Shown piece after piece: positions 27,287 to 35,804 of a stretch of 64,000 bases of DNA (position 1 is its first letter; each line of letters opens with the position of its first letter). This DNA is from an uncultured SAR86 cluster bacterium (GTDB taxonomy: Bacteria; Pseudomonadota; Gammaproteobacteria; Magnimaribacterales; AG-339-G14). The notes under the pieces were generated by a model. That model worked only from the letters and a program-made list of their open reading frames with translations, did no database searches and was not told the origin of the DNA. The position numbers and the translations under genes were made by a program. The stretch spans positions 195,680 through 259,679 of the forward strand of contig CACJUN010000001.1 of the NCBI GenBank assembly GCA_902596665.1. Direction: 5' to 3'.

Positions 27287-27766
27287 TTGAAATTATATTT
27301 TTTGCGTCATGCCAAATCTTCTTGGGATGACCTTCATTTAGATGATTTCAAAAGACCTTTATCGGAAAGAGGTATAAAAAATTCTGAAATGCTTAACGCG
27401 TTTTTAAAGTCTAAAAAAATTTCCTTTGATAAGGTTTATTCGAGCTCTTCGGTTAGAACTGAGATTACTTGTTCGGTTGGTTTAGAAGGGATTTATGATT
27501 TTGAAAAGGTAACTTTTTTGGATGATCTATATCATGCATCTGCAGAACATTTAGAGGATTTCCTTCAAAGAAAATTAGGCGAAGAGTCTGTTTTAGTCGT
27601 CGGGCATAATCCTGGATTAAGCGATATAGTAAGTCATCTTACACATAGAGATATTTATTTAAGAACTTGTGATCTCATCAGTCTTGAGTCAAAGCAAAAT
27701 GATTCTAAACTGTTGTGCAATTTACTTTGGTCTTGGAGTCCGAAGAAAGGATTTATTGAAAATTAA
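27287..27766 (+). CDS. sixA: SixA-like phosphohistidine phosphatase (TTG start)
   Basis: A 159-residue histidine-phosphatase-superfamily protein. The catalytic LRHAKSSWDD begins at residue 6 and a second catalytic His is in VVGHNPGLSD. E. coli SixA (161 residues) removes phosphate from HPt domains or PtsO. The RHAK motif fixes the start at a TTG at 27287, because an in-frame stop lies just upstream. There is no ribosome site, so translation probably couples to the FAH gene ending one base earlier. The tail overlaps a convergent gene by 14 nt. Confidence 0.88.
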   Translation: MKLYFLRHAKSSWDDLHLDDFKRPLSERGIKNSEMLNAFLKSKKISFDKVYSSSSVRTEITCSVGLEGIYDFEKVTFLDDLYHASAEHLEDFLQRKLGEESVLVVGHNPGLSDIVSHLTHRDIYLRTCDLISLESKQNDSKLLCNLLWSWSPKKGFIEN

Positions 27767-28358
27767 AGTCCTTGTATTCGGCCGAAGCAATTTGTCTTGT
27801 GTTATCTGCATCTGTGATGACTCCCCAACCCCAGATCTTTTTTATATCGATGTTTAAGTATTTTTTAAAATCTTCAACAAGGTTAATCTTTTCTTCTTTC
27901 CAAGTATCGACCCCATCTTGACTATCTCTAAGTGCAATATTGATCTGTTTTGAGTTCCAGGGATTAACCCATACCGTTCCTTTTTCAACTGAATCTGTCC
28001 AAACATAATTAAGACATCTTTTTTGTGTAGGAAGTATTCCATCCGATTTACAAAAAATGATTCTAGCTGCAAAGTCATGATTTCTTCTCAAACGCTCATT
28101 AGCCTCAAGCGGAATTAACACTTTCCATTGCCACGAAGCTGTATTTTTATCTAGGACATCAAAAGTATCAGTAGTCACGAACACACTATTGCCTGAATTG
28201 GTATAACTTCGCACATGATTGTCACTGATCACTTCATACTCAGTGGTTCCTCCAATGATGCTTCTGGAAAAAAAATCATTGAAATCAGGATAGGTCATTA
28301 CCTGCGGGGTGACAAAAAAGGAAACCACTAAAAAAAAATTACGCTTTAATGTGACCAT
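27753..28358 (-). CDS. DUF3047 family secreted protein
   Basis: A 201-residue protein with an N-terminal signal (MVTLKRNFFLVVSFFVTP). The mature region follows the DUF3047 pattern: WQWKVLIPLEAN, HDFAARIIFCKSDG, NYVWTDSVEKGTVW, and the final GVITDADNTRQIASAEY. The family has no established function and is probably periplasmic. Two Cys are present around the middle (FCKSDG, KRC). Its start codon overlaps the repeat element in front of the PlcP-like gene. Confidence 0.85.
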   Translation of the reverse strand: MVTLKRNFFLVVSFFVTPQVMTYPDFNDFFSRSIIGGTTEYEVISDNHVRSYTNSGNSVFVTTDTFDVLDKNTASWQWKVLIPLEANERLRRNHDFAARIIFCKSDGILPTQKRCLNYVWTDSVEKGTVWVNPWNSKQINIALRDSQDGVDTWKEEKINLVEDFKKYLNIDIKKIWGWGVITDADNTRQIASAEYKDFNFQ

Positions 28359-28393
28359 GATGTGATAAATATATAGCTTTATTGTGATAATTG
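28350..28393 (+). promoter_or_regulatory. 11-bp-phased TGTGA repeats, candidate PhoB-type operator
   Basis: TGTGA occurs at 28350, 28361 and 28383, that is in an 11-nt register with one degenerate unit at 28372 (TATAGCTTTAT). PhoB binds direct 11-bp repeats with a TGTCA core in Enterobacteria, so these differ from the known half-site by one base. A GATAAT at 28386-28391 could be the -10. The element precedes the PlcP-like gene, the first of a run leading to phoB-phoR. Identity as a Pho box is inference. Confidence 0.4.
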
Positions 28394-28449
28394 AATAATT
28401 CTATTGAATAAGAAAATTTTGGCTAGTATTCTACTCATCCATAACCAAT

Positions 28450-29247
28450 ATGGAACCCACTGCAAAACATTTTAAATCTATCTTTTTGTCGGATATTCAC
28501 TTAGGCACCAAAGGTTGCCAATCCGAAAGACTGTTGGATTTTCTTTACAAACACACTTGTGACAAACTTTATTTAGTGGGTGACATTATCGATGGCTGGA
28601 AGTTAGAGCAAAGAATTTACTGGCCCCAAGAACACACCAACGTCATCAGAAAGTTTTTATCGTTTGCAAAAAACGGAACAGAGGTCTTTTACATCACTGG
28701 AAATCACGATGAATTTTTACGGTCTTTTAGTCCTTTGAATTTAGGTAACATAAAAATGGTCGATAAGGTCGAACACACCACAAATAACGGAAGAAAAATT
28801 TTGGTTGTGCATGGAGATGAGTTTGATTTGGTGACAAGGCACAGTAAATGGATCTCTGTTTTTGGCAGTTGGGTTTATGAATTTTTAATATCTATGAATA
28901 CCGTAATTAATTTTGTCAGACGAATCTTTGGAGTAAAAAATTATTGGTCTTTTTCAGCTTACATTAAGTACAAAGTTAAAAATGCAGTCAATTTCATCAG
29001 TAAATACGAGACGACGCTTGTCAACGTCTGTAAGAAAAAATCATATGATGGAGTCATTTGCGGTCACATTCATCATGCTGGAATAGAAGATTATGAGGGG
29101 ATTACCTATCATAATTGTGGAGATTGGGTTGAATCGTGCACTGCATTAGTTGAAGATCATGACGGGAACATCTCACTAATTGATTACTCGAAAGAAAATC
29201 TCACCATTAACTTAAAAAGAATACAAACTGCTGAAAAAGCAGCATGA
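28450..29247 (+). CDS. plcP: PlcP-type metallophosphoesterase (UDP-diacylglucosamine pyrophosphatase-like)
   Basis: A 265-residue calcineurin-like phosphoesterase. Metal motifs are FLSDIHLGTKG, LVGDIIDGWKL, GNHDEFLR, VVHGDEFD and GHIHHAGI. The end reads YHNCGDWVESCTALVE. This subgroup is often auto-annotated as an LpxH-like UDP-2,3-diacylglucosamine diphosphatase. The same subgroup contains PlcP, the phospholipase C-like enzyme that removes phospholipid headgroups under phosphate starvation in Sinorhizobium and marine bacteria. Here a GT4 glycosyltransferase overlaps it by 4 nt and phoB-phoR follow, which favours PlcP. Enzymatic identity is inferred from context. Confidence 0.82.
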   Translation: MEPTAKHFKSIFLSDIHLGTKGCQSERLLDFLYKHTCDKLYLVGDIIDGWKLEQRIYWPQEHTNVIRKFLSFAKNGTEVFYITGNHDEFLRSFSPLNLGNIKMVDKVEHTTNNGRKILVVHGDEFDLVTRHSKWISVFGSWVYEFLISMNTVINFVRRIFGVKNYWSFSAYIKYKVKNAVNFISKYETTLVNVCKKKSYDGVICGHIHHAGIEDYEGITYHNCGDWVESCTALVEDHDGNISLIDYSKENLTINLKRIQTAEKAA

Positions 29248-30224
29248 AAATCCTAATAGCCACAGATGCTTGGACCCCCCAAGTTAATGGTGTTGTGACA
29301 ACTCTTACCTCATTGGTTGCTAATCTTTCGCAGGATCATGAGGTAAAAATAATTGAACCTAGTCAATTCAAGTCGTTCCCTATTCCTGTTTATCCTGAGA
29401 TAAGGGCATCCCTTGATGTATTTAATGCCAAATCAATTTTGAAATCTTTTAAACCTGATGCAATTCATATATCCACAGAAGGACCTATTGGTATTTATTT
29501 GAGAAATTATTTGGTAAGAAAAAAAATACCTTTCACAACTGCTGTGCATACAAAATTTCCTGATTATCTGAAAGACTTAATGGGACTACCAACTTCTATT
29601 ACCAATGAATTTCTTAAATGGTTTCACTCTGGAGCTCAAAAAACTCTCGTCAATACTCCATCTCATAAAAAAGAGTTAGAACAAATTGGACTTAAAAATT
29701 TGAAATTATGGAAAAGAGCTGTCGATCAAAATGTGTTTATGCCAATGCTAGAGAGCAATGAAAAATCTTACTATTTGTACGTGGGCAGAGTTTCAAAGGA
29801 GAAAAATTTAGAAGCTTTTTTTGATCTGGATCTTGAATTTCCAAAGTTTGTCGTAGGTGAGGGTCCGCAATTTAAAGAATATAAAAAAAAATATCCTTCT
29901 ATTAATTTTTTGGGTTACAAATACGGAAAAGAGTTAGCTGAAATTTACAGCAAGGCGAGGGTGATGGTATTTCCTTCATTAACTGATACTTTTGGATTGG
30001 TAATGTTGGAAGCTAATGCATGCGGTACACCAGTTGCGGGTTATCCTGTAACCGGTCCAATTGATGTTATCTCTCAAGGTAAAAATGGTTTTTACGCCAA
30101 GGATTTAAAAGCAGCAGTTGAGAAAGCCGAAAAAATAAACTCAGAAGGTTGTGTTGCCTTTGCAAGTCAATTTTCTTGGGACCAAGTTACAAAGGATTTT
30201 ATAAATACATTGATCAGAATATGA
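29244..30224 (+). CDS. GT4 glycosyltransferase, candidate Agt glycolipid synthase
   Basis: A 326-residue GT4 retaining glycosyltransferase. The N-terminal acceptor domain starts LIATDAWTPQVNGVVTTL. The C-terminal GT-B domain contains YLYVGRVSKEKNLEAF, FPSLTDTFGLVMLEANACG and the sugar-nucleotide EX7E-type region. It resembles GDP-mannose-dependent alpha-mannosyltransferases. The start overlaps the PlcP-like gene stop by 4 nt. In marine bacteria PlcP is often paired with such a transferase (Agt), which glycosylates the diacylglycerol PlcP produces to give glycolipids that replace phospholipids. Sugar donor and acceptor cannot be read from sequence. Confidence 0.83.
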   Translation: MKILIATDAWTPQVNGVVTTLTSLVANLSQDHEVKIIEPSQFKSFPIPVYPEIRASLDVFNAKSILKSFKPDAIHISTEGPIGIYLRNYLVRKKIPFTTAVHTKFPDYLKDLMGLPTSITNEFLKWFHSGAQKTLVNTPSHKKELEQIGLKNLKLWKRAVDQNVFMPMLESNEKSYYLYVGRVSKEKNLEAFFDLDLEFPKFVVGEGPQFKEYKKKYPSINFLGYKYGKELAEIYSKARVMVFPSLTDTFGLVMLEANACGTPVAGYPVTGPIDVISQGKNGFYAKDLKAAVEKAEKINSEGCVAFASQFSWDQVTKDFINTLIRI

Positions 30225-30270
30225 AATTTTTTTTATTCAATAACTCTTTAAAAAATAGGATAATCCAATA

Positions 30271-30960
30271 ATGAGTAAACACGTCCTGCTTGTCGAAGAC
30301 GAACCAGATTTAAATGAAACAATTTCATTTAATTTAGATTCGGAAGGTTATGAGGTAGCTTCAGTCTTCAATGGTAAAGACGCCCTGAAAGCCATTGAAA
30401 AGAAAAAACCTGATTTGATTTTGCTTGATTTAATGTTGCCGGACATGTCAGGTCTAGAAATATGCAGAGAATTAAGGTCTTCCAAAAAAACAAAAAAAAT
30501 ACCTATCATGATGGTTACCGCTAAAGGAGAAGAAGTCGACCGTATAGTTGGCTTTGAGCTTGGGGCAGACGACTACATTGTTAAACCTTTCAGTATAAGA
30601 GAGTTCATGTTGAGAGTCTCAGCAATGCTTAAAAGAACAGATAATAAGTCAGATGCTGATGAAGATTTGATAACTTTTGACTCTCTGGAAATTGATCTCG
30701 CAGCCCACAGAGTCAAACTTGATGACAAAGAAATTTCATTAACGGCCAAGGAGTTTGCATTACTTCAGTATTTAACTGAAAGGATGGGTAGAGTGCAGAC
30801 TCGAGATGCGCTGTTGGATGAAGTTTGGGGATATAACTCTGAAGTAACTACTAGAACTGTCGATACTCACGTGAAAAGACTTAGATCAAAATTAAAACAT
30901 GTTGGCAGCAACATCGAAACCGTAAGGGGCGTTGGGTATCGCTTTAACTCTCCATCTTAA
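30271..30960 (+). CDS. phoB: Phosphate regulon response regulator PhoB
   Basis: An OmpR-family response regulator of 229 residues. The receiver domain has the acidic pocket Asp10-Glu11, phosphoacceptor Asp53 in LLDLMLPDM, and the switch lysine in DDYIVKPF. The C-terminal winged helix has LTAKEFALLQYL, RVQTRDALLDEVWGY and TRTVDTHVKRLRSKL. Length and sequence are those of PhoB (E. coli 229). It would activate phosphate-starvation genes by binding 11-bp direct repeats. A GATAAT 6 nt before the ATG and an AGGA at 30257-30260 are both possible start signals. PhoR follows 14 nt later. Confidence 0.94.
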   Translation: MSKHVLLVEDEPDLNETISFNLDSEGYEVASVFNGKDALKAIEKKKPDLILLDLMLPDMSGLEICRELRSSKKTKKIPIMMVTAKGEEVDRIVGFELGADDYIVKPFSIREFMLRVSAMLKRTDNKSDADEDLITFDSLEIDLAAHRVKLDDKEISLTAKEFALLQYLTERMGRVQTRDALLDEVWGYNSEVTTRTVDTHVKRLRSKLKHVGSNIETVRGVGYRFNSPS

Positions 30961-30974
30961 AATGATTTTTCCTC

Positions 30975-32744
30975 ATGTCCGTAAGAGCTAAAATTTTTCT
31001 CATTACTTTTAGTTTGCTGGCTTTAGCAACCGGCGGAGGAGGGCTCTTCATTCAATATCAGTTAACTGGATATCTGAATGATGATGTCAATTCAAATCTT
31101 GAAAATCATGCAAAAATTGCCCAAAAACTTTTTATCGATGCCGGATTGAACGTTACTAATGCTGATGTTCTAGCTGATGATTTGGGAGAGGCATCCGGCC
31201 TCAGAGTTACCATTATATCTGAGGATGGAACTGTATACGGCGACTCTGACGTTTTGAAACTAGATCTTGATGCTGTTGAAAATCATTCAAATAGACCTGA
31301 GATCATGTTGGCAAAGAATAATGAATCTGGACTATCGCAAAGATTTTCAAACACCCTGAATACCGATATGAGGTATTTAGCGGTAAGAATTCCATTCAAT
31401 GGAGAAAACGGTTTTGTGAGAATTGCTTCTCCTTTGTCAGAAATTAATAGGGCTCTTGCTCAAGTAAGGTACATAGTATTACTGGCCGTTCTCGTTGGAT
31501 TTATTTTTGCAATTTTTGTTAGTTACTTTTCCTCAAACATCATTCTTGGTTATTTGAAAGAATTTATTAGCGATGCAGAAGATTCAATTAACGACGACTC
31601 AGGTAATCTCCGAATTAATGCTGGGCATGGAAGTGAACCTTACACTGTTGAGTCTGCACAAGAGGACTTAAAAAAAGACCTTCAAATTCTCGCTAAACAA
31701 CGAAAACAATTTAGTTCTGTGTTAGAAAAAATGGGACAAGGGGTTTTACTCCTCAATAAATCAAATGAAGTGTTGTTTTATAACAGAACTATAAAAGATG
31801 ATTTCTGGCCTGAGCTTGAGGTCGGTACTAAATTTTTTAACAATATCAGTTACCCTGCGCTCAAAAAATTTCTAAAGAAAGCCTGGGAAAAAAATGAATT
31901 AGCAATAGAAATCAACGGCCCTAAATCAATCAACTCATCCTATTTAATATCTGCTAGAAGAGATAAAACCAAAGATGAGATGCTGGTTGTGTTTAACGAT
32001 ATTTCTAAGCTCCGACAGCTAGAAAAAATGAAAGAAGACTTCATAGGAAATGTCTCCCATGAATTAAGGACTCCAATATCTGTGATAAGAGCAAATGCTG
32101 AAACTTTAATACACGGCAAATTTATTGATGATCCAAATGCAATTGGTTTTACTGAAGCAATTTTGACTCAATCGGAAAACATGACTGAAACCGTATCTGA
32201 ACTTTTGAAACTCAGTTCTATCGAAGCAGGAGAATATGACTTGAACATGGAAAATCATAAATTGGGCAAATTGATTAACCAAACAGTTAAAGCTCATCAG
32301 GACCAAGCTAGATTAAGAAATATTTCTTTAAACGTTCAATTGGAAGAAGATATCAATATTGTTGTTGATGCGTCTGCATTTTCAATCATTCTAAGTAACT
32401 TCGTTACCAACGCTCTCAAACACTCTCCATCAAATTCTGAAATTCTTATAAAAAATGATCTAGAAGATGACTTTTTGACTACTTTAAGCGTGATAGATCA
32501 TGGGAAAGGTATCCCAAAAAAATACAGAGATAGGGTATTTGAGAGATTTTTTAGGGTTGATAAGGGAAGGGCAAAGCATTCTGGAGGAACAGGGCTTGGT
32601 TTAGCTATCTCAAAGCATTTAGCCAGATTAATGGGTTATGAAGTTGGCATGAAACCCAACAAACCTAACGGAAGTAGATTTTGGATTTCCGTAAATTATG
32701 TTTCCTCAGAGGAAGAAAAATCGTTAACTCCTGAATTAGCATAG
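30975..32744 (+). CDS. phoR: Phosphate regulon sensor histidine kinase PhoR
   Basis: A 589-residue membrane histidine kinase. TM1 is near residues 5-30, and a periplasmic domain of about 130 residues follows. TM2 (YIVLLAVLVGFIFAIFVS) lies near residues 165-185, then a linker and a PAS-like domain. The HisKA box FIGNVSHELRTPISV places the phosphorylated His at 362. HATPase motifs are SNFVTNALKHS, DHGKGIP and GGTGLGLAISKH. It is longer than E. coli PhoR (431) because it has a true periplasmic sensor domain, like Gram-positive PhoR. No pstSCAB or phoU is in the window. The last 49 nt overlap the convergent ppx gene. Confidence 0.92.
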   Translation: MSVRAKIFLITFSLLALATGGGGLFIQYQLTGYLNDDVNSNLENHAKIAQKLFIDAGLNVTNADVLADDLGEASGLRVTIISEDGTVYGDSDVLKLDLDAVENHSNRPEIMLAKNNESGLSQRFSNTLNTDMRYLAVRIPFNGENGFVRIASPLSEINRALAQVRYIVLLAVLVGFIFAIFVSYFSSNIILGYLKEFISDAEDSINDDSGNLRINAGHGSEPYTVESAQEDLKKDLQILAKQRKQFSSVLEKMGQGVLLLNKSNEVLFYNRTIKDDFWPELEVGTKFFNNISYPALKKFLKKAWEKNELAIEINGPKSINSSYLISARRDKTKDEMLVVFNDISKLRQLEKMKEDFIGNVSHELRTPISVIRANAETLIHGKFIDDPNAIGFTEAILTQSENMTETVSELLKLSSIEAGEYDLNMENHKLGKLINQTVKAHQDQARLRNISLNVQLEEDINIVVDASAFSIILSNFVTNALKHSPSNSEILIKNDLEDDFLTTLSVIDHGKGIPKKYRDRVFERFFRVDKGRAKHSGGTGLGLAISKHLARLMGYEVGMKPNKPNGSRFWISVNYVSSEEEKSLTPELA

Positions 32745-33616
32745 TTTTCATTGATATATTTCTGAACAAGAGCATCACAGATGCTCCACGGCGCAGCTCT
32801 GAGACTAGCTTTATCCAAAATATCCATAATCCTTAAAAAAATTTTTCCAGCTGATTCTATTATGTCTGCTCTATCCGATGAAAAGTTATAGTTCTCTATC
32901 TTTTCTTTTTTGCTTAATTTAACCAATGAAAGCAAACATGCATTCAATGATTTTTTAGATACTGAATTATTTATATCGTCGTTAATAATGGAAATTAAGG
33001 ATCTCACGTTACCCCCGACACCAACAATATTCTTAATGTGACCAAGAGAGGCTAAAAAAGCTTCTAGATCTTGCCACTCGGATAAATGATCTTTTTCTAA
33101 ATAAATTCTGACAGCGCCCAGGTTCAGTGACTTGAACATGACATTTGAAGAGTTTTTATAGAATAACTCCGTGCTGCCTCCTCCGACATCAACAAATAAG
33201 TAACTACCATCCGCTGGGAATGAATTGGATAAATCATTCAAAAGCTGAGCTTCTTGATCGCCCGAAAGAAGATGAATGTTTAGGTTTAGTTTGGCATTTA
33301 GATGCTGACAAACTTCACTCCCGTTTGATGCTGATCGCATTGCAGAGGTAGCAAAACCTCCAATTAAGTTAATTTTCTTTGAATCCAAGTTAGAGACTAA
33401 TTCATCCAAAGATTCAGTTAACTTATTAATGGTTTTTTTTCTGATTTTTCCTTTTCTAAAAGCATCGGTGCCTAATCGGATAGGAATTCTTTTGTAAGTC
33501 TCTAATTCTTTTGAATAATTTTGATTGTCACCAGCAATAATTCTAAATTGTTTGTATTTGATTGCATTTGAACCAATGTCTATGCACCCAATTTGATCTA
33601 TTTTTTTAGGATTCAT
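32696..33616 (-). CDS. ppx: Exopolyphosphatase / GppA family phosphatase (short form)
   Basis: A 306-residue member of the Ppx/GppA ASKHA family. Motifs are GCIDIGSNAIKYK (phosphate-1), ATSAMRSASNG, FVDVGGGSTELFY (phosphate-2) and GVGGNVRSL. It has only the two actin-like domains and lacks the C-terminal HD-like domains of E. coli Ppx (about 510). It degrades polyphosphate, pppGpp or both. It is co-transcribed with ppk2 (11-nt overlap), which favours polyphosphate. Its 3' end is antisense to the end of phoR. Confidence 0.88.
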   Translation of the reverse strand: MNPKKIDQIGCIDIGSNAIKYKQFRIIAGDNQNYSKELETYKRIPIRLGTDAFRKGKIRKKTINKLTESLDELVSNLDSKKINLIGGFATSAMRSASNGSEVCQHLNAKLNLNIHLLSGDQEAQLLNDLSNSFPADGSYLFVDVGGGSTELFYKNSSNVMFKSLNLGAVRIYLEKDHLSEWQDLEAFLASLGHIKNIVGVGGNVRSLISIINDDINNSVSKKSLNACLLSLVKLSKKEKIENYNFSSDRADIIESAGKIFLRIMDILDKASLRAAPWSICDALVQKYINENYANSGVNDFSSSEET

Positions 33617-34439
33617 CAGCGAATGAATTCAAAACCTTAAATTGATCGTAGGATAAGTTTTCAAAAAGCACACCGTTGATTTTAAGATTATAGATATTCA
33701 TTCCCTCAGACCAGACTTTTGGTTTTGGTATATTTTTTTCTGGGTAATCAAACTTTTCCAGGATATATCTAAGAGAGTTTAGTGCTGCAACCATTTTCGT
33801 ATTAGCGTTAATGATCACCCAAGGCGACTCTTCATGAGAGGTGCTTGAAAACATTTGATCTTTGTAAAAAGTAAACGCATCCCATCTGTCAGCAACCTTC
33901 AAATCATTCTCACTGAACTTCCAAAAAATAAGAGGGCTATTTCTTCTCTTCTCGAACCTTTTCTTTTGTATATTTTTTTCAACCGATAGATATATCTTCA
34001 CAATTTCTGTTCCATTTTCCAAAAGCTCCTTCTCCCATGGAATTACTCTTTTCATAAAATTTTTGTACTGTCTTTGTGAACAATAATTCATAGTTATTTC
34101 TGTAAGAGCTCTCGTGTACCAAGATCTATCAAAAAAAACTATTTCACCGGTTTCGGGCATGTGTTTCTCATATCTCGAGAACCAATGAGTTGATTCCCAT
34201 TTCGTTGGTATACCCAGTTTTACGAGCCTTACGTGTTCTGGAATCAGATATTTACTTAAAACAGAGATGCTTCCTGTTTTACCTGCCGTATCTCTTCCTT
34301 CAAAGACTATTGCTATTTTCTTTTTTTCTTCAATAATCCATTTTTGTAACTTAAGAAACTCTGCTTGTAATCTCCTCAATTCTCTACGGTAAAGATCTGG
34401 ATTGATCTGAGAATATTCTGCAATATCGTATTCAAACAT
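33606..34439 (-). CDS. ppk2: Polyphosphate kinase 2 (PPK2)
   Basis: A 277-residue P-loop kinase that transfers phosphate between polyphosphate and nucleotides. The Walker A region is FEGRDTAGKTG near residues 47-56. The lid follows, then Walker B-like EIVFFDRSWYTRALTE. THWFSRYEKHMPETGE is the usual PPK2 loop. Single-domain length suits class I, which favours GDP/ADP phosphorylation; class cannot be fixed here. FDRSWYTR replaces the more common FDRSWYNR. It leads a two-gene ppk2-ppx operon, divergent from the PiT transporter. Confidence 0.92.
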   Translation of the reverse strand: MFEYDIAEYSQINPDLYRRELRRLQAEFLKLQKWIIEEKKKIAIVFEGRDTAGKTGSISVLSKYLIPEHVRLVKLGIPTKWESTHWFSRYEKHMPETGEIVFFDRSWYTRALTEITMNYCSQRQYKNFMKRVIPWEKELLENGTEIVKIYLSVEKNIQKKRFEKRRNSPLIFWKFSENDLKVADRWDAFTFYKDQMFSSTSHEESPWVIINANTKMVAALNSLRYILEKFDYPEKNIPKPKVWSEGMNIYNLKINGVLFENLSYDQFKVLNSFADES

Positions 34440-34553: not shown

Positions 34554-35804
34554 ATGGCATTCGTTGGAATAGAAACAGAAATTATTATCTTGGCCTGTGT
34601 TTTTGGTTTCATCATGGCATGGGGGATTGGAGCGAATGACGTTGCAAATGCATTTGGTACATCGGTTGGATCAGGAGCTATTTCTTTAAAAACCGCACTG
34701 TTGATTGCGTGTATTTTTGAATTTGCGGGTGCATTTCTAGCTGGCGGGGAAGTCACCGATACCATAAGAAAAGGAATTATTGACTCGGATCAGTTTACCA
34801 ATAATTCAGATGTTTTAGTTTTTGGAATGATGTCTGCACTTTTGTCGGCGGGAATTTGGTTATTCGTAGCATCGGCTTTAGGTTGGCCAGTATCAACTAC
34901 TCATTCAATCATTGGAGCCATCATTGGATTCACCGTAGTTGGCCTTTCATTTGATGCAGTTAACTGGCAAAGGGTTTCAGAAATTGGCACTACTTGGATT
35001 CTATCTCCTGTTTTCTCGGCGTTGGTTGCCTTTGTTATATTCAAAAGCATAAGGTTTCTTATTCTTGACAGCAGAGATCCCTTTTCCAATACCATGAAAT
35101 TTAGTCCTATTTATCTATTTTTTATGGGCTTTGTAATTGCAATGCTCACATTCACAAAAGGACTAAAGCACGTTGGTTTAGATTTTAGTTTTTATGAATC
35201 AATTATTTACTCAAGTTTGGTTGGCCTAGTAATTGTTTTTGCCGGTATTTTACTTTTAAGATCAAATAAGCCGGGTAAAGATGAAAACATGAGCATCGAG
35301 TCTTTTTTTGGCATGCTGGTAATTTTTACTGCTTGTTCTATCGCATTTGCGCATGGTTCTAACGACGTTGCGAATGCCGTTGGCCCTTTGGCTGCTGTTA
35401 TAAATACTGTTTCCTATAACAGCTCGGTTGATTCCCAGACAGCTGTCACCACAGGAGTATTGCTACTTGGGTCTGTTGGGATAGTGATAGGCTTAATTAC
35501 GTTTGGTTACAGGGTTATTGGAACGGTAGGCAAAGGAATAACAAAAATTACACCCTCATCAGCTTTTGCTGCAAATTTAGCAACGGCTTTTGTTGTAATT
35601 TTAAGTTCAGGCTACGGTTTTCCTGTTTCGACAACACATACACTGATCGGAGCTGTAATAGGGGTGGGATTAGTCAATTCATCAAAAAGTTTATCTTGGG
35701 GAAAAGTTGGTCAAATTTTTTCAGGGTGGATCATTACCATTCCCATTGGAGCAATTCTCTCCATACTTATTTTTTTAGTCTTTAAAGCTATTTATTCTTT
35801 TTAG
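34554..35804 (+). CDS. pitA: PiT-family inorganic phosphate transporter
   Basis: A 416-residue integral membrane phosphate/cation symporter. The two inverted-repeat signatures are IGANDVANAFGTSVGSGA near residue 25 and AHGSNDVANAVGPLAAV near residue 265. Paired GWPVSTTHSIIGAIIG and GFPVSTTHTLIGAVIG motifs complete the repeat halves. About 10-11 transmembrane helices are present. It is the low-affinity uptake system, placed here with PhoBR, PPK2 and Ppx. Stop codons are shared with convergent gspO (4-nt overlap). Confidence 0.95.
   Translation: MAFVGIETEIIILACVFGFIMAWGIGANDVANAFGTSVGSGAISLKTALLIACIFEFAGAFLAGGEVTDTIRKGIIDSDQFTNNSDVLVFGMMSALLSAGIWLFVASALGWPVSTTHSIIGAIIGFTVVGLSFDAVNWQRVSEIGTTWILSPVFSALVAFVIFKSIRFLILDSRDPFSNTMKFSPIYLFFMGFVIAMLTFTKGLKHVGLDFSFYESIIYSSLVGLVIVFAGILLLRSNKPGKDENMSIESFFGMLVIFTACSIAFAHGSNDVANAVGPLAAVINTVSYNSSVDSQTAVTTGVLLLGSVGIVIGLITFGYRVIGTVGKGITKITPSSAFAANLATAFVVILSSGYGFPVSTTHTLIGAVIGVGLVNSSKSLSWGKVGQIFSGWIITIPIGAILSILIFLVFKAIYSF

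Follow-up and report, generated by a model that had tools for sequence, protein, structure and literature searches.

The closest described systems to the locus analyzed here are the plcP-agt1 pair of Pseudomonas aeruginosa (PA3219-PA3218; PMC8528852), and the PlcP and Agt enzymes of Agrobacterium and of the marine oligotroph SAR11 HTCC7211 (PMC4796936, PMC8231724). Our window, that is, the whole stretch of 64,000 nucleotides that was analyzed, comes from the assembly of an uncultured SAR86 cluster bacterium (1.28 Mb in 14 contigs, 94% complete). It contains two genes with the same order and 4-nt overlap (ATGA) as the P. aeruginosa pair, whose products are 55% identical to PlcP, over 92% of the protein, and 43% identical to Agt1, a verified glucosyl-diacylglycerol synthase. 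Their catalytic residues, and the pathway predicted from them, are those of the SAR11 and Agrobacterium enzymes. The P. aeruginosa locus differs in that it adjoins cyaB, carries a recognized Pho box and lacks phoBR within the 10.7 kb covered, and in that this organism has an additional Agt2 for a glucuronosyl lipid. The presence of PlcP in SAR86 has been known since 2016 (PMC4796936); among the contexts described in the available part of that study, none has plcP-agt directly before phoB-phoR.

In the window, plcP (28450..29247, + strand; a cytoplasmic phospholipase C-type metallophosphoesterase of 265 residues) overlaps agt (29244..30224, +; a GT4 diacylglycerol glycosyltransferase of 326 residues), which is followed after 46 nt by a gene for a PhoB-like response regulator of the OmpR family (30271..30960, +) and, 14 nt further, by a gene for a PhoR-like sensor kinase (30975..32744, +) whose N-terminal sensor domain is single-Cache-like. 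This layout had been predicted from the window's letters, and its coordinates, the five metal motifs of the phosphoesterase, the overlap and the 46-nt gap were all recovered. Convergent with phoR lies a Ppx-like exopolyphosphatase gene (32696..33616, −; PF02541), which adjoins phoBR in SAR86 families f1, f2 and f3, followed by genes for a PPK2 polyphosphate kinase (33606..34439, −; 270 bits for TIGR03707, below its cut-off of 301.8, and 230 bits for PF03976) and a Pit/PHO4-family phosphate transporter (34554..35804, +; PF01384, 375 bits). On the other side, a SixA-like histidine phosphatase gene (27287..27766, +; TIGR00249, 60.9 bits, below the cut-off of 74.5) marks what in relatives is the left border of a plcP-agt cassette, outside the cassette itself; in cassette-free genomes it adjoins phoB. 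The cassette is thus embedded in a phosphate island that also encodes polyphosphate enzymes and a transporter of the Pit or the Pst type. A DUF3047 gene (27753-28358) precedes and diverges from plcP in the window's genus, with its start codon abutting the presumed plcP promoter region; none was seen at that site in the other SAR86 genera mapped.

The reading that we favor, and hold to be highly probable, is that these genes form a PlcP-Agt pathway replacing phospholipids with glycolipids, carried as a cassette in front of phoB-phoR. The cytoplasmic PlcP would cut the head group off a membrane phospholipid, yielding diacylglycerol and a phosphate-bearing head group, and Agt would move glucose, or else galactose or glucuronate, from a UDP-sugar onto the diacylglycerol to give a phosphorus-free glycolipid, a swap that would free phosphate. 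Since plcP-agt, directly before phoB-phoR, is probably co-transcribed with it, the pathway and its presumed regulator would rise together at phosphate shortage.

To place this organization, 61 genomes of the SAR86 order (G000-G060), 29 of them at least 90% complete, were surveyed. The plcP gene is present in 26 of the 61 genomes (13 of the 29 in the more complete set), and many close relatives do not have it. It lies just upstream of phoB-phoR in 11 genomes, distributed over three genera and two families: six genomes of g1, the window's own genus, three of g3 and two of g8. Two further plcP-bearing genomes, cut by contig ends, are compatible with this linkage, and in the other 13 of the 26 plcP is away from phoR or, in G039, no phoR match was found at the cut-off used; plcP-agt is apart from phoBR in genera g2, g4, g7 and g14. 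Within the window's genus, the order plcP-agt-phoB-phoR is not due to chance, because it is kept in all six testable genomes, at PlcP identities down to 78%. Genus g3 displays both states of the site, reading sixA-phoB-phoR when plcP is absent and sixA-plcP-agt-ugd-phoB-phoR when it is present. The additional gene, a UDP-glucose dehydrogenase gene that follows agt in g2, g3 and one g8 genome, would supply UDP-glucuronate, a donor for several Agt enzymes. A sugar preference read from the missing ugd in the window was considered and dropped, there being another UDP-glucose dehydrogenase gene in a polysaccharide cluster of the genome (L095:1296-2465). In G042 (L065:3677-5275), an amidohydrolase gene stands between plcP and agt. 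The order of g1, g2-g4 and g8 in the PlcP tree fits the SAR86 families and, together with the shared linkage, suggests an old association of plcP-agt with phoBR, with repeated loss and relocation.

The regions upstream of these genes were then compared. No Pho box above chance was found upstream of plcP in the window (best 9 of 14 positions, reached by 43% of shuffles), and an apparent 11-bp periodicity there proved to be at shuffle level (0.34, fraction 0.41). In the cassette-free G025, a Pho-box-like pair lies upstream of phoB, with a score of 11 of 14 that 0.6% of shuffles attain; the other SAR86 upstream regions tested were at chance or weak. A different signal emerged in the sister genera, namely, a 19-nt element, GTTACAGAATTGAAAATTT. 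A scan of 651 kb of SAR86 sequence, allowing up to two mismatches, gave 14 matches, which come from related genomes and are not 14 independent events. Eight precede plcP in g2, g3 and g4, some of them at loci distant from phoB, and six precede phoB in plcP-free genomes of g3; the element was matched nowhere else. The longest word common to two such upstream regions is 19 nt long, compared with a shuffle maximum of 13. The window shows no match at up to two mismatches, and its genus has neither Pho box nor 19-nt element.

These observations bear on the strongest rival explanation, in which the genes are indeed plcP and agt but are expressed independently of phosphate or from their own promoter, the linkage to phoBR arising because phosphate genes cluster when a genome is compact, and the 46-nt gap containing an internal promoter for phoB. 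The window's want of a Pho box, the separation of plcP-agt from phoBR in four genera, and the 60-nt gap plus small cytidylyltransferase-like gene ahead of phoB in g8 all agree with such an arrangement. Nevertheless, we regard it as unlikely, given that the gene order is kept in three genera and that the 19-nt element found before plcP also precedes phoB in genomes lacking the cassette. Moreover, in g3, where agt and ugd overlap, there is little room for a phoB promoter because the gap between ugd and phoB is only 7 nt. A common transcript of plcP-agt and phoB-phoR remains our preferred reading, under which the window's cassette would be controlled by PhoB and induced by low phosphate.

Beyond SAR86, 370 gammaproteobacterial genomes were sampled, of which 105 carry plcP, and 60 plcP neighborhoods were fetched to measure linkage. 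Agt next to plcP is the commonest plcP arrangement, seen in 34 of the 53 loci mapped outside the SAR86 order. Four loci (L113, L129, L139 and L140) were confirmed to encode, within 6 kb of plcP, a PhoB that exceeds the cut-off, and most PhoB and PhoR proteins encoded close to plcP in gammaproteobacteria other than SAR86 score above the curated cut-offs. One genus, represented by L139, L140 and L142 (the last with the same layout by BLAST only), resembles SAR86 in that plcP-agt adjoins phoBR, but phoB-phoR is directly upstream of plcP-agt, the reverse of the SAR86 order, and, unlike the window pair, its PhoB (L139, L140) and PhoR (L139) exceed the curated cut-offs. The linkage in that genus probably arose separately. 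Among 80 named loci, the SAR86-type order was found only in SAR86.

Both members of the window's regulator pair score below the curated cut-offs. The top NCBIfam model for the response regulator is PhoB (TIGR02154), with 266.6 bits against a cut-off of 296.2, and the top two models for the kinase are PnpS (271 bits) and PhoR (TIGR02966, 229 bits, cut-off 334.2), both below cut-off; its single-Cache-like domain (PF16736) is above cut-off, at 33.3 bits. At about 450 residues, the PhoR proteins of g2-g4 (L052:9643-10989; L071:5081-6433) align with the window protein only beyond its first 171 residues, starting at residue 172, and no single-Cache domain was detected in them, while the window's genus keeps it. 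A PhoR-like kinase was matched in all but ten of the 61 SAR86-order genomes. No PhoU (PF01895) match above cut-off was obtained in any of the 61, using a search that was positive in 13 of 14 controls; DUF47 (PF01865), which is distantly related to PhoU, was matched in four, all of family f2. PstS was not found in the window's genome and is present in eight SAR86 relatives, six of them in g3. One position of the island, between ppk2 or a porin gene and a prepilin-peptidase-like gene, can apparently be filled by either Pit or pstSCAB as a cassette, with pst in the place of Pit in sister genera at L160:4109-8828 (NCBIfam-confirmed models) and L163:10954-15589 (gene sizes and PstS only). A 2024 survey of SAR86 found Pit to be core and Pst patchy, and its text mentions neither plcP nor phoB (PMC11582366).

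It is tempting to speculate that SAR86 has a phosphate switch that works without PhoU and, here, without Pst, in which the PhoR-like kinase, through its extracytoplasmic single-Cache sensor, would directly sense phosphate or some other signal, and the cassette would have been inserted behind the phoB promoter and ahead of phoB itself, placing remodeling and regulator on one feedback-controlled transcript; this scenario is possible but rather doubtful. The original prediction that, in this lineage, the pair belongs to the Pho operon holds in part. The order is kept in three SAR86 genera, the window's own among them, but half of the plcP-bearing genomes of the SAR86 order show no phoR link and many close relatives have no plcP. 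Nor were a classical Pho box upstream of the window plcP, PhoB and PhoR scores above the curated cut-offs, or PhoU found here.

A second alternative takes into account that SAR86 has been predicted to eat membrane lipids. PlcP may recycle scavenged or damaged phospholipid rather than serve remodeling under starvation, and the Agt glycolipid may be constitutive. Lipid catabolism is abundant in SAR86 genomes (PMC11582366), but the pair acts in remodeling in the bacteria tested (PMC4796936, PMC8528852, PMC9239053), and the window locus is surrounded by phosphate genes, which makes this alternative improbable.

We turn now to the enzyme assignments. For the glycosyltransferase, a first GT4 tree was poorly resolved, with very long outgroup rows, and the assignment uses identities and residues instead. 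Identity to P. aeruginosa Agt2, which was picked out by its location behind plcH-plcR and which we take to be PA0842, is 30%, compared with the 43% to Agt1. A study of the SAR11 enzyme described the motifs GRVAXEKN and FPSXTDTFG, a His-Asp dyad in which Asp replaces the usual GT4 Glu, and an Arg and a Trp that bind diacylglycerol, and found the TDTFG aspartate, the His, the Arg and the Trp to be essential (PMC8231724). The window protein has GRVSKEKN, with one substitution, at the A, and FPSLTDTFG, and its VHTKFP, TDTFG, KRAVD and FSWDQV segments align with Agt1 and the other Agt rows, the roles of these residues being taken from that study. P. aeruginosa Agt2 carries the Glu form (SETFG). Judged by these features, the prediction of an Agt-type diacylglycerol glycosyltransferase at 29244-30224, and not a generic mannosyltransferase, is well supported.

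The phosphoesterase carries its metal motifs at residues 15 (DIH), 44 (GDIID), 84 (GNHDE), 121 (HGDE) and 205 (GHIH). It is 44.5% identical to PlcP of Sinorhizobium meliloti, and 20-22% identical to LpxH, both that of E. coli and the genome's own. The nearest named PlcP records are from SAR86 cluster bacteria (96-97% identity). The two PlcP anchors were drawn from records filed as plasmids, namely, P. aeruginosa pHOU1-1, where plcP-agt is directly before cyaB as at PA3219-PA3218, and a 3.7 Mb S. meliloti record labeled pSymB, where plcP is beside acyl-homoserine-lactone synthase and LuxR genes. We take this cyaB to be PA3217, and the latter genes are presumably sinI and sinR, which adjoin SMc00171. 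As a side observation on these records (CP090106.1, NZ_CP042268.1), the S. meliloti pSymB looks chromosomal, and the P. aeruginosa plasmid has chromosomal gene order, plcP-agt included. The anchors are 46.6% identical to each other, which matches the 46% published for PA3219 and S. meliloti PlcP (PMC8528852).

PlcP and LpxH were split in the tree at 100/100 support, and every PlcP row, the window included, reads GNHD where the LpxH rows read GNRD. An AU test of the window protein grouped with LpxH gave p 0.25, the constraint merely shifting the attachment of the outgroup on a very long branch. The window protein scores below the curated LpxH cut-offs (TIGR01854, 43.1 of 190 bits; NF003743, 51 of 134 bits), and a separate canonical LpxH above cut-off (TIGR01854, 240.6 bits) is encoded in the same genome at C1:561091, behind ppiB as in E. 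coli; the other phosphoesterases found are ApaH and, by inspection, a short YfcE-like protein. A grouping with true LpxH in a genome lacking any other LpxH, the outcome set against PlcP beforehand, was not found, because PlcP identity, the tree split and the GNHD signature all place the protein with PlcP, and the genome has its own LpxH behind ppiB. LpxI is an unrelated protein family, so the tree with LpxI that had been suggested is not meaningful. PlcP homologs in L035, L036 and other plasmid-collection matches, including the PlcP records of P. aeruginosa and S. meliloti, are annotated as UDP-2,3-diacylglucosamine diphosphatase (LpxH). These database names, the common calcineurin-like phosphoesterase fold, PDB matches to LpxH only and weak LpxH model matches could suggest a lipid A enzyme beside a lipopolysaccharide or polysaccharide mannosyltransferase, adjacent to phoBR by coincidence, but against the model scores, the true LpxH elsewhere, the GNHD signature and tree split, and the diacylglycerol-binding residues of the GT4, this is extremely improbable. 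That 28450-29247 encodes a predicted PlcP rather than LpxH is well supported by these comparisons.

The enzymes encoded by plcP-agt are thus of a known kind, and what is new is their behavior in SAR86 as a presence/absence cassette, often with ugd, between sixA and phoB, the 19-nt element common to sister genera, and the PhoU-less setting. No earlier description of plcP-agt as a module gained or lost before phoB-phoR was found in the searchable literature. For the abundant, uncultured marine SAR86 bacteria, our results provide a concrete candidate pathway for saving phosphorus, and correct for the window plcP a widespread misannotation as LpxH. As an on/off module tied to a presumed regulator, this pathway could be charted, by presence, against phosphate in the ocean. 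The lack of PhoU matches throughout the order, in turn, makes PhoBR-type sensing without PhoU testable, and one SAR86 isolate now exists.
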